Part shown: in pieces, positions 19,364 through 45,358 of the stretch
How the letters are laid out: the number at the start of each line of letters is the position of its first letter
Numbering within the stretch: position 1 is the first letter of the stretch
NCBI GenBank assembly: GCA_018970325.1
Contig: JAGWWP010000006.1
Coordinates: 1 to 64,000, forward strand
Length of the DNA stretch: 64,000 nucleotides
Direction: 5' to 3'
Source: Cyanobacteria bacterium REEB446
GTDB lineage: Bacteria > Cyanobacteriota > Vampirovibrionia > LMEP-6097
Made by a program: the position numbers and the translations under genes
The notes under the pieces: generated by a model
Seen by the model: the letters and a program-made list of their open reading frames with translations, nothing else
Told to the model about the DNA's origin: nothing
Database searches by the model: none

Positions 19364-19450
19364 CATGTGACTAACACATTCGGTTCATTTCGTCCCACTC
19401 TTGCAGAGCGGGTCCCCAAGCTTCATTCACTCAAATGTGTTAGTCACATG
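19364..19450. repeat. 17-bp perfect inverted repeat
   Basis: CATGTGACTAACACATT (19364-19380) / AATGTGTTAGTCACATG (19434-19450). Confidence 0.85.
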
Positions 19451-19489: not shown

Positions 19490-19520
19490 GCTTGAGGCAA
19501 AACAAAGTTTTGCCTCAAGC
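19490..19520. repeat. 14-bp perfect hairpin with 3-nt loop
   Basis: GCTTGAGGCAAAAC-AAA-GTTTTGCCTCAAGC. Confidence 0.85.
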
Positions 19521-19640
19521 CTGCTTTTGTTGTTTTATATTTTTCAAGTTTGTATTTTATAATTGCTGAGATATGGATGATCATTTGATGAAGCTCTTCT
19601 TTGGTAAGCCCCTGAGAAAATTTAAACCATTCGAGAATTT

Positions 19641-19687
19641 CATAATTAGATAAAACTGGAATTTGATTCCAGTTTTATCTAATTATG
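19641..19687. promoter_or_regulatory. 22-bp perfect inverted repeat directly upstream of AAA/DUF4143 gene
   Basis: CATAATTAGATAAAACTGGAAT-TTG-ATTCCAGTTTTATCTAATTATG then GGTAAAATATAGCT-ATG. Confidence 0.85.
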
Positions 19688-19701
19688 GGTAAAATATAGC
19701 T

Positions 19702-20910
19702 ATGGCAACAAATCACTATTTCGAGCGTGAAATAGAAAAATTAGTAAAGAAATCCGCTCGTAGCTTCAGTGCCTTAGTTATTACTGGTGCTCGGCAGGTG
19801 GGGAAGTCTACTATGTTAAAGCAGTTATTTCCTAAACATAGTTATGTTTCACTAGATGAAATGGATACGAGATTGCGTGCGATTGAAGATCCACGTGGAT
19901 TTTTAATGAACTATAAACTGCCACTTATCATTGATGAAATTCAGGAAGCCCCATCTATACTAAGTTATATAAAAAAAATCATAGATGATAACCGAGATAA
20001 AACTGGTTTGTTTATCATTACTGGTTCCCAGCAGTTTTCTTTAATGGAGGGCGTACAGGAATCACTGGCTGGACGCTGTGCAGTATTAGACTTAAGTAGC
20101 TTTTCTATTTTTGAATTAGAGTCAAATATTCAAAAAGAAGAAAAAATTACAACTCAAAGAAAAACAGAAAAGCCCTGGAGTGCTTATATAGAAAGAGGCT
20201 CATATCCAGAGTTATGCTTAAAACCTAAGCTAGACAGGAAACTCTGGTATTCATCCTATTTAAGAACTTTCATAGACCGAGATATAAAATCTAATTTAAA
20301 CAAGAGTTATTTAAAGCATTTCGAACAGTTTACTTTTCTGTTACTCGCAAGATGCTCTCAGGAATTAAATTATGCGGATATTTCGAAAGATCTAGGTATA
20401 GATTTAAAAACCGTAAAAGCATGGATAGCTCTTCTGGAAAGATCACAGATTATATTTCTTTTAAATCCTTATCCGAAAAAAATTGAGAATAAACAAATCT
20501 CAAAAAAACCTAAATTATATTTTTACGATAGTGGTCTCATAGCTCATAGCCTTGGTTATCACACTCAAGAACAAATACAGACTGGGCCACTTGCTGGAGC
20601 TTTATTTGAAAACTTAATAATAAGTGAGCTGCAAAAAAGAAAATTAGCAAAAACAAGCAGCGAAAAATTTTATTTTTTCCGTGAAAAAAATGGACTTGAA
20701 ATAGATCTAATCATAGAAAAAGCAGAAAAATTAAATCTAATCGAAATTAAATCTAGTCAAACCCCCACACTAAGCTCAGCCAAGAACTTGCTGAAATTTA
20801 AAGAATTAGTCCCTAATGTTAAAGAGACTTATTTAGTCTCAGCATATTCAGAAGAATTTAGCAGCCAATGCATAAAATTTAGATTTTTCAAAAATTTCCT
20901 AAAAGACTAA
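19702..20910 (+). CDS. AAA ATPase with DUF4143-like C-terminus
   Basis: Walker A VITGARQVGKSTML, Walker B PLIIDEIQEAP, sensor IITGSQQFSLM, C-terminal PD-(D/E)XK-like GLEIDLIIEKAEKLNLIEIKSS. Confidence 0.88.
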   Translation: MATNHYFEREIEKLVKKSARSFSALVITGARQVGKSTMLKQLFPKHSYVSLDEMDTRLRAIEDPRGFLMNYKLPLIIDEIQEAPSILSYIKKIIDDNRDKTGLFIITGSQQFSLMEGVQESLAGRCAVLDLSSFSIFELESNIQKEEKITTQRKTEKPWSAYIERGSYPELCLKPKLDRKLWYSSYLRTFIDRDIKSNLNKSYLKHFEQFTFLLLARCSQELNYADISKDLGIDLKTVKAWIALLERSQIIFLLNPYPKKIENKQISKKPKLYFYDSGLIAHSLGYHTQEQIQTGPLAGALFENLIISELQKRKLAKTSSEKFYFFREKNGLEIDLIIEKAEKLNLIEIKSSQTPTLSSAKNLLKFKELVPNVKETYLVSAYSEEFSSQCIKFRFFKNFLKD

Positions 20911-42619: not shown

Positions 42620-43822
42620 TCAATTCTTAAAAATCTCCAAAAAATCTTCATCCTCTTCCATATCCTCAAATTTAATAAATTTAATTAAACGCCCTCTGTA
42701 ATCTAGCTCCCCACTAATATTTTCATTAATAACGAAACAGCGTTCTGTACTCGGATATGAACGCAAAAAATGCTCAAAAGCTTTAGGTATAAGCATTTGC
42801 TTTAGCTTAGATTTAACTTCTATAATACTCGGCTTGCGATTTTTAATATAAATAAAATCTATTTCATTACCATCTTTAGTTCTCCAGAAACGTATCTCAG
42901 AGTTTTTAGGTGCTCGCATTCTTAAAGCATTGTGCACATAGGATTCATATAAAAGCCCCTTATCTGATCTAGCTTTCAATAAAGAAAAATCACTAATAAT
43001 AGAATTTCTAATTCCATTATCAAATAGAAAATATTTTTTAGATTTTTTCAGCTCATTACTGAGATTTTGCGAAAAACTATAAAGCGGATAAAGCACGAAA
43101 GTCTGTTCCAGTATTGCCAAATAATGCTCCGCAGTCTTATTACTTACCATTAATTCACGCGCAAGAGAGCTCACTGAAACAATTTGAGCTTGAGTATCAG
43201 CTAAAATATAGATTAAGCGATTAAAGGCTGGAATATTCTCTTCTTTAATTAGGCTTTTAATATCTTTCAGGATATAGGTAGCGACTAGGTTATCAAGCAA
43301 ATCAATTTTCTGATCATTAGTTTTCAAATGAATCAAACCTGGTAAGCCACCATAAATTAAATAGCTTTCAAAAGTTTTTTTTGTCTGTTTAAATTCACTA
43401 AAACTGAGCGAAAATATATGCTTCTCAATCTTTCTTCCAGCAAGGCTTTCCTTTAAATGTTTATGCATTTCCAAGGAAGAGGAACCTGATGCAATAATTT
43501 TAACTTTCAATTTCCTATCATCAAAAATAGCTTTAAATAAACTAGAAGCATTTTCAAAATATTGAAATTCATCAATAAAAATAAAATCTGTGTTCTTTGT
43601 AATATCCTTATATAGACTGACTAAGTCTTGATTAAAATAACGACTATCTTCGGGAATCTCTAAATTAAAATATTTAGTTTTTTTCTTCTTCGCTTTAGCA
43701 AATTTCTCAAGCTCAATCATTAAATGGGTTTTACCAACCTGCCTTGCACCAATCAAGATCAATATCTCACTTTTTTTCAAGCACTTAATTAAATCATCGA
43801 AAGAATCTCTCTTCACAAGCAT
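42620..43822 (-). CDS. AAA ATPase with DUF4143-like C-terminus
   Basis: LIGARQVGKTHLM, FIFIDEFQYFE, IASGSSSLEM, WRTKDGNEIDFIYIKNRKPSIIEVKSK. Confidence 0.87.
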   Translation of the reverse strand: MLVKRDSFDDLIKCLKKSEILILIGARQVGKTHLMIELEKFAKAKKKKTKYFNLEIPEDSRYFNQDLVSLYKDITKNTDFIFIDEFQYFENASSLFKAIFDDRKLKVKIIASGSSSLEMHKHLKESLAGRKIEKHIFSLSFSEFKQTKKTFESYLIYGGLPGLIHLKTNDQKIDLLDNLVATYILKDIKSLIKEENIPAFNRLIYILADTQAQIVSVSSLARELMVSNKTAEHYLAILEQTFVLYPLYSFSQNLSNELKKSKKYFLFDNGIRNSIISDFSLLKARSDKGLLYESYVHNALRMRAPKNSEIRFWRTKDGNEIDFIYIKNRKPSIIEVKSKLKQMLIPKAFEHFLRSYPSTERCFVINENISGELDYRGRLIKFIKFEDMEEDEDFLEIFKN

Positions 43823-43844
43823 ATATTACTATTTTACCCAAGTA

Positions 43845-43878
43845 CTCCAAAATAGTAAATTTTTGACGATTTTGGAGT
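43845..43878. promoter_or_regulatory. inverted repeat upstream of AAA gene
   Basis: ACTCCAAAAT ... ATTTTGGAGT, followed (minus strand) by GGGTAAAATAGTAATAT-ATG. Confidence 0.8.
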
Positions 43879-43890
43879 GACGAGGAAAAC

Positions 43891-45036
43891 CTAATCCGAT
43901 AGAAATCCTGTACCGATAAAGCTTTTAGTATCCACGATAAACTTCTGAGCATCTACATATTTTTCAGAAAAAGTTTTAGGAAATCTATACTTCGCCCCAG
44001 AACGATATTTGAATTCAAAACACTGAAGATTTTTTTCTCTCCCCCAATCTTCCACTAAATCTATTTCTTGATTATCATAATTTCGCCAAAAATAATAAGA
44101 GGGGTTATAACCCTGATAGTAATTAGATTTCATCCTTTCAACAATTGCAAAATTCTCCCAAAGCTGCCCAATATCCGTCCTTAAGTCCAAATCATTAAAA
44201 TCATTAATCAGTGAATTCCTTATACCTAAATCATAAAAATATATTTTTTGACTTTTCTTTATCTCATTACGTAGATTCTGAGAGAAAGAACTTAATCTAA
44301 AAATTACAAAGCTTTTCTCTAAGATATCTACGTATTTAATTACAGTAGCTTGATCTAAACCTAAAACAGTAGCGATCTCGTTATAGGAAACTGTAGAAGA
44401 GATTTGATAAGCAAGTAACCTTAATAGCTTAATTAAATAATCAGATTTTTTTATGCCAGATATACTAAGTAAATCTTTAAAAAGATACTGCTCAGTAATT
44501 TCATTTAAAGCATCTCGAATATCTTCAGCCGCCAAATCATAGATTCCTGGATAGAGACCATATTTAAGAGCGTGCTTCATATTACGGCTCAGCTCAAGTG
44601 AGTTATCACTAAGCTCCGTGATAGATAGGGGATACAGCGTAAAACTATAAGACCTGCCAGTTAAAGGTTCATTCACTATATTAGCTAAATCAAAGCTGCT
44701 AGAGCCTGTGGCAATAATCTGTGTATCAGTCAAATTATCCACTAGAATCTTTAATTTAAGACCAATATCTTTTATTCTCTGAGCTTCATCTATAACTACT
44801 AAATCACTTGAGCCAATCAAAGCTTTAAGCTCAGTAAAATTTTTAGCTCCCTCGAAAGCTGCCTGCACGTCATATTCATCTGCATTTAAATATATAGACT
44901 TAGATGCAGGATAATCACGCATTAAAGCCTTTACCAGTGTAGTTTTTCCAACTTGCCTTGCACCATAAATAAGCAAGGCCTTTCCCTTAAAAAGCTTTTT
45001 CTTGATTCTTGCAAATATTTTACGCTCATAAAGCAT
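43891..45036 (-). CDS. AAA ATPase with DUF4143-like C-terminus
   Basis: LLIYGARQVGKTTLVKAL, DLVVIDEAQRI, IATGSSSFDL, WRNYDNQEIDLVEDWGREKNLQCFEFKYR. Confidence 0.87.
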   Translation of the reverse strand: MLYERKIFARIKKKLFKGKALLIYGARQVGKTTLVKALMRDYPASKSIYLNADEYDVQAAFEGAKNFTELKALIGSSDLVVIDEAQRIKDIGLKLKILVDNLTDTQIIATGSSSFDLANIVNEPLTGRSYSFTLYPLSITELSDNSLELSRNMKHALKYGLYPGIYDLAAEDIRDALNEITEQYLFKDLLSISGIKKSDYLIKLLRLLAYQISSTVSYNEIATVLGLDQATVIKYVDILEKSFVIFRLSSFSQNLRNEIKKSQKIYFYDLGIRNSLINDFNDLDLRTDIGQLWENFAIVERMKSNYYQGYNPSYYFWRNYDNQEIDLVEDWGREKNLQCFEFKYRSGAKYRFPKTFSEKYVDAQKFIVDTKSFIGTGFLSD

Positions 45037-45053
45037 CTAATCTAAAATTTTAC

Positions 45054-45085
45054 CCTAATTTTCCGATTACAATCCAAAAATTAGG
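45054..45085. promoter_or_regulatory. inverted repeat upstream of AAA gene
   Basis: CCTAATTTT ... AAAATTAGG overlapping GGGTAAAAT (minus strand) before ATG at 45036. Confidence 0.75.
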
Positions 45086-45281: not shown

Positions 45282-45358
45282 AATATCCCTCTCCACAAGC
45301 ATATATTACTATTTCACCCAACTACTCCAAAATAGTAAATTTTTGATGATTTTGGAGT
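45282..45358. repeat. duplicated AAA-gene leader (inverted repeat, GGGTGAAAT box, first codons) fused to the hepT relic
   Basis: ACTCCAAAAT/ATTTTGGAGT and AAGCATATATTACTATT match 43819-43880 almost exactly. Confidence 0.85.

Follow-up and report, generated by a model that had tools for sequence, protein, structure and literature searches.

A perfect palindrome with 22-bp arms lies directly in front of a DUF4143 gene in the window, by which we mean the whole stretch of 64,000 nucleotides that was analysed. The palindrome is probably an operator bound by the product of the gene that it precedes, with autorepression the probable outcome; the binding is a prediction made from sequence. The palindrome-promoter layout is far more general than this one gene, and occurs in eight bacterial phyla.

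Palindrome and promoter box in the window

The window contains three DUF4143 genes. Their features are as follows.

19641..19687, forward strand: perfect palindrome with 22-bp arms and a TTG centre (3-nt loop), the proposed operator; its symmetry is kept in the orthologs of genomes G003, G006 and G007 despite changed sequence
19648..19680, forward strand: 33-bp core of the proposed operator, with 8-bp half-sites AGATAAAA / TTTTATCT, 17 bp between them and the axis at base 19664; the geometry is clade-wide
19687..19695, forward strand: GGGTAAAAT box, whose first base is the last G of the palindrome
19702..20910, forward strand: AAA_14-wHTH-DUF4143 (PD-(D/E)XK) gene, 402 aa, PADLOC PDC-S01, with ATG at 19702; AlphaFold2 (AF2) model with pLDDT 92
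20302..20463, forward strand: segment coding for the winged helix, residues 201-254, the likely reader of the operator, from the secondary structure of the model and a weak HTH_11 match in a paralog
42620..43822, reverse strand: second DUF4143 gene, 400 aa, with AAA_14 and DUF4143 domains and a PDC-S01 match
43831..43839, reverse strand: GGGTAAAAT box of the 43822 gene
43844..43878, reverse strand: imperfect inverted repeat ACTCCAAAATCGTCAA-AAA-TTTACTATTTTGGAGT, upstream of the 43822 gene
43891..45036, reverse strand: third DUF4143 gene, 381 aa, with AAA_14 and DUF4143 domains and a PDC-S01 match
45047..45055, reverse strand: GGGTAAAAT box of the 45036 gene
45054..45085, reverse strand: inverted repeat CCTAATTTT-N14-AAAATTAGG, upstream of the 45036 gene and overlapping its box
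45300..45358, reverse strand: mutated, near-identical second copy (by alignment) of the putative operator-promoter and start codon of the 43822 gene, with the box GGGTGAAAT

The palindrome of the first gene, referred to below as the window gene, reads CATAATTAGATAAAACTGGAAT-TTG-ATTCCAGTTTTATCTAATTATG. The first-pass annotation had described it as abutting GGGTAAAAT, followed by the ATG, and this is what is seen at 19641-19687, 19687-19695 and 19702. The -10 hexamer TAAAAT (19690-19695) starts 26 bp past the axis and ends 6 nt before the ATG. The same layout had been claimed for the 43822 and 45036 genes, and inverted repeats do adjoin GGGTAAAAT at both. The arms differ in length as described (22, 10 and 9 bp), the 10 bp of the 43822 gene lying within a 16-bp imperfect arm. 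The box had been called constant. That holds among the three window genes only; family-wide, the -10 element is of the form [GT]GGTA[TA]AAT, with close variants.

A short broken reading frame (MLVERDIMSKINLEYFTRHTNTLEKAF...) comes after the copy at 45300-45358, on the same reverse strand. Two more inverted repeats, at 19365-19449 and 19490-19525, lie 3' of the pcrA-like gene and look terminator-like by eye.

Frequency and geometry of the layout

The host genome is Melainabacteria-like (2.25 Mb, 97 contigs) and contains 43 DUF4143 matches, corresponding to about 40 genes. This is an unusually large expansion for 2.25 Mb; the corresponding numbers of matches in genomes of the same genus are 33 and 19. 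Among named relatives of the window gene, the closest comes from a Candidatus Melainabacteria MAG (LMEP_6097).

Inverted repeats were scored as the best repeat upstream of each gene (match +1, mismatch -2, loop 3-30), and a score of at least 10 near the start was counted as strong. The 37 intact DUF4143 genes of the host genome were compared with 148 other genes that have intergenic gaps; these controls come from the window and from stretches totalling 400 kb. That such repeats should be commoner upstream of DUF4143 genes than elsewhere was a test named beforehand, and they are: strong repeats precede 20/37 DUF4143 genes and 5/148 controls (Fisher 1.6e-12), and 1.5% of composition-shuffled DUF4143 upstream sequences reach the same score. 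In two genomes of the same genus the proportions are 57% and 59% of DUF4143 genes, with weaker values in other genera. A third to a half of the members have no strong inverted repeat by the score used, the fraction in the host genome being about a third. This is partly because some automatic starts are wrong, as at L011, where the true start is downstream of the palindrome.

The box can be considered in the same way. The sequence GGGTA[AT]AAT is found within the last 60 nt of 15/37 DUF4143 upstreams and 2/148 control upstreams, and is therefore enriched in the family and not generic. The reverse is true of TGnTA[AT]AAT, found in 0/37 and 9/148 respectively. These counts rule out the explanation, allowed for in the first-pass annotation, that GGGTAAAAT is simply the generic -10 context of the genome. 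GGGTAAAAT itself has 30 strand-summed sites in the 2.25 Mb, against 20 for the reversed control, and occurs in 0/148 control upstreams.

The geometry of the palindromes is well defined. Those of the window clade consist of two half-sites, each approximating KAYAAAT, with about 17 bp between them. The axis falls on a base in 25/25 strong palindromes of this clade; in other clades its parity is mixed, and in some it is mostly even. When half-sites were tested in 32 genes whose palindromes had not been preselected, full 8/8 complementarity was found in 19/32 at spacers of 17 and 19, against 0-1 genes at even spacers. A symmetrised motif from 30 non-redundant sites, belonging to several phyla, reads Y-N-K-A-Y-A-A-A-T-Y-N-R-R-A-R-T toward the axis. 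At 8-18 bp from the axis its complementarity is 0.87-1.00, and at 4-6 bp it is 0.90-0.97. These values are partly built in, since the 30 sites were selected for having palindromes; the shared base preferences are not a product of that selection.

The position relative to the promoter is also fixed. In 16/21 window-clade genes with a recognisable box, the -10 hexamer starts 25-29 bp past the axis, mostly at 26. In 11/16 of these the hexamer ends 3-8 nt before the start codon, and in the other five the distance is 17-19 nt. More generally, a -10 ending 3-12 nt before the start is present in 54% of host-genome members, compared to 19% of controls, and SD-like sites are rarer in the family (8% against 25% of controls). 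The short spacing from -10 to start is typical of a leaderless promoter. An RNA hairpin is an unlikely reading of the palindrome: with the -10 box on its downstream side, the palindrome would not be transcribed, at least in most window-clade members. A symmetric site at a fixed position of the gene's own promoter, as found here, is one feature of an autoregulatory operator.

The layout is also present on plasmids from seven phyla besides that of the host and on IMG/VR contigs, where 24/48 DUF4143 genes have a score of at least 9. The plasmids contribute 14/24 and the IMG/VR contigs 10/24, one of the latter having 20-bp arms that end at the ATG. Plasmid arm lengths include 21 bp (Moraxella and Acinetobacter), 20 bp (Collinsella), 19 bp (Runella), 18 bp (Treponema and Sphingobium), 13 bp (Granulicella) and 10 bp (Arcobacter); with Desulfosarcina, these hosts make up the seven phyla. 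The null for this comparison was shuffled sequence, of which about 4% reaches a score of 9; the same score is reached by 13.5% of the intergenic controls from the host genome, and 24/48 is still higher. The Arcobacter gene (L367, Arcobacter cloacae pACLO), with its 10-bp-arm palindrome, is located between cas3 and cas4.

Private sequences and co-change with the protein

Every palindrome is private, each gene having its own version. Among the orthologs of the window gene, sites of the type GGATAAAT..ATTTATCC are found in G006 and G007, and GGCTAAAA..TTTTAGCC in G003. Even between G003_L092 and G007_L091, at 95% protein identity, the two palindromes are set apart by paired changes. In close orthologs (at least 85% identity) 7 double arm changes were observed, against 1.65 expected by chance, and 7/7 stay complementary, where about one third would be expected. 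There are also 41 single-side changes that break a pair, against the 7 compensated ones, so that the constraint on symmetry is partial.

Palindrome similarity tracks protein similarity (Mantel r 0.156, null sd 0.026, null maximum 0.08). Covariation between the putative operator and segments of the protein peaks at residues 211-255, in the helix-turn-helix (HTH) segment, and is not significant after removal of close relatives: with redundancy removed, the single-window P is 0.024, which is not significant over all windows. Frameshifts split the ortholog of the window gene in the same-genus MAG LMEP_6097 (L119, DUDT01000012.1), and the symmetry of its palindrome is gone. This is as expected if symmetry needs a working gene; the frameshifts may instead be an assembly error.

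The pattern GGACAAAT-N(9-25)-ATTTGTCC was searched for in 382 genomes of the class, and gave 16 sites. All four DUF4143-linked sites have a spacing of N17 and are upstream of DUF4143 genes; none of the ten sites with another spacing in these genomes is DUF4143-linked. Two more sites have N17, and one of them belongs to a larger palindromic repeat of G003 (L340, G003:C35:17080), a long repeat which carries the motif by chance or descent and has no adjacent DUF4143 gene. When four genomes were scanned with a degenerate pattern, no other promoter showed full symmetry of the site, as judged by eye, the G003 repeat being the only exception. For the window clade, these scans argue against a regulon and against dispersed copies of a target. 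The site is thus specific to the adjacent gene and changes with it, which is a second feature of an autoregulatory operator.

The encoded protein and the proposed operator

All three window genes combine AAA_14 and DUF4143 in one protein, and match the PADLOC PDC-S01 models with E 3e-90 or better. PADLOC lists the DUF4143 family as the phage-defence candidate PDC-S01. According to PMC12988326, this family is an ATPase fused to a PD-(D/E)XK domain, and ranks as the fourth most common defence across prokaryotes. The promoter palindrome is a feature added here: the available text of PMC12988326 and PMC13356809 makes no mention of one for PDC-S01/DUF4143, and no earlier report of a DUF4143 promoter palindrome was found in the open-access literature searched. 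In Thermus thermophilus, the DUF4143 gene TT_P0211 is up 6.6-fold in the joint presence of plasmid DNA and Argonaute, so that one member of the family is inducible; that study deals with the induction of the gene, and not with an operator or promoter (PMC4406477).

AlphaFold2 gave a pLDDT of 37 for the window protein from the single sequence, rising to 92 (pTM 0.91) with IMG/VR homologs. The first-pass annotation had proposed an AAA domain, a winged helix and a PD-(D/E)XK-like end, and all three are present in this confident model: the core is AAA+, residues 201-254 form the winged helix (helices 201-216, 224-231 and 235-247, strand 251-254), and there is a PD-(D/E)XK-like domain. One paralog has an HTH_11 match at residues 202-249 (E 8e-5, just below Pfam's cut-off). 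The modelled winged helix thus supplies a third feature of an autoregulatory operator, namely a DNA-binding domain in the encoded protein. The Walker motifs and the nuclease residues are intact, with G29, G34, K35, D78, E79, E333, D335, E348 and K350 invariant, and the PD-(D/E)XK signature of the window protein is E333-I-D335..E348-I-K350.

A search of solved structures with the single protein sequence gave no match, and the same search with a profile gave 2fna, an uncharacterised protein. Fold matches are to RuvB, the Pyrococcus ATPase 2qen, STAND proteins, Orc1/Cdc6 and the nuclease Cdn1, all with low global TM-scores. Orc1/Cdc6 (PDB 2qby and 2v1u, both solved with DNA; E 3e-5 and 7e-5) resembles the window protein in having AAA+ plus a winged helix, but it has no nuclease domain and binds replication origins, and the global TM-scores are 0.25-0.28.

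On the basis of these observations, we hypothesise that the palindrome is the operator of the gene that it precedes. Two DUF4143 subunits, forming a dimer or belonging to a larger assembly, would bind the two half-sites of one symmetric site, the contact being made by the winged helix, which is located between the ATPase domain and the nuclease domain. The site would cover the promoter upstream of the -10 box ([G/T]GGTAWAAT), and the protein would thereby control its own leaderless transcript. The sign of this control is most likely repression, since RNA polymerase should be blocked by protein sitting immediately 5' of the -10 box; activation is the less likely possibility. The roughly 40 copies in a cell need not regulate one another, because the site differs from paralog to paralog. 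The operator might be freed by a signal acting on the ATPase, for example DNA that is invading or damaged, and this would allow a burst of nuclease, presumably in defence.

The restriction-modification controller (C) proteins and antitoxins are comparable cases: a defence or selfish module encodes a protein that recognises a symmetric site at the promoter from which it is itself expressed, and the gene is in some cases leaderless. The likeness is to the binding predicted here. In those systems the regulator is a small HTH protein, whereas here it is likely to be the ATPase-nuclease itself, with dozens of private operators per genome.

An operator that can be read from sequence would predict which DNA each PDC-S01/DUF4143 protein binds. 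It would be a first handle for testing binding and induction, and for asking which signal releases the protein. The dozens of paralogous protein-operator pairs in one cell would form a natural set for studying how specificity diverges.

The first-pass annotation had offered an operator, a recombination or target site and a cassette boundary, with REP-RAYT pairs as a loose analogy. The operator is favoured by the fixed geometry, the set distance from axis to -10, the conserved half-site motif and the privacy of each palindrome; a cassette role is not needed, and the RAYT analogy is unsupported. REP-RAYT shares with the present family a gene beside a palindrome. Here, however, there is no HUH/Y1 transposase domain (by Pfam, PHROGs and fold search), the geometry is that of a double-stranded operator, no paired 3' repeat was seen, and a scan with the window-clade consensus, the only consensus used, found no dispersed copies of the site.

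It is unlikely that the DUF4143 protein mobilises a single-gene unit in the manner of IS200/IS605 or RAYT, with the palindrome as the unit's left end or hairpin. Some observations do point that way. Homology within the genus can run only from near the left edge of the palindrome to the stop codon, with different flanks (L020/L156, -57 to stop+4; L002/L216, -81 to stop+11); orthologs of the window gene in other genera are at other loci, and G006 has no such gene between pcrA and mraY; and DUF4143 genes are common on plasmids. Against this, synteny extends over the larger loci, with inserts to either side, the palindrome keeps a fixed distance from the -10 box, and neither an HUH/Y1 nor a DDE domain is present (the latter by Pfam and fold search). 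A conserved promoter and gene between fast-changing flanks would give the same borders. The homology blocks do begin at the palindrome and end with the stop codon, but in the few borders compared by eye no matching right-end repeat or target duplication was seen, so that a paired-end cassette finds no support in these few loci. The frequent gain and loss and the plasmid carriage fit a defence gene that moves horizontally, with its promoter travelling along.

Slightly less probable is that the palindrome serves chiefly as a target for the nuclease, or as a mark of self and non-self, and not as a transcription operator. The intact PD-(D/E)XK signature would suit such a role, and private sequences would let sister elements be recognised, but a cleavage target leaves the promoter-centred geometry and leaderless spacing unexplained. 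Under the preferred reading, in which the palindrome is an operator, there is a small chance that this abundant candidate defence family regulates itself by a family-wide code of private operators and that the same recognition is also used on target DNA. In that case the protein would be titrated off its operator by DNA that invades the cell, or by a sister copy with a matching site, and the nuclease would be both induced and directed.

It is very improbable that another host regulator binds the palindromes in place of the encoded protein. Binding by the DUF4143 protein is itself predicted, which leaves room for this idea, but there are many private palindromes per genome, they track protein similarity, and they share a motif across phyla, so that a matching set of regulators would be needed everywhere. 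Least probable of all is a mutational artefact, in which template switching keeps quasi-palindromes symmetric without selection: arms do change together and fast, as between G003_L092 and G007_L091, but the restriction to the family, the fixed axis-to-promoter distance and the conserved half-site motif are left unexplained, and perfect palindromes are not equally frequent upstream of unrelated genes, as the strong-repeat counts above show.

Two further observations concern individual DUF4143 loci of the host genome (G000). At L078, a frame that overlaps the stop of the DUF4143 gene (G000:C6:25571 onward) starts with MKEFNLLLGAGFSKAL and appears SIR2-like by eye; it is absent from the corresponding place in G001. 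Short fragments at G000:C31:7825-7997 resemble the DUF4143 gene at C31:3256-4561, and are possibly a decayed copy about 3 kb away from it.
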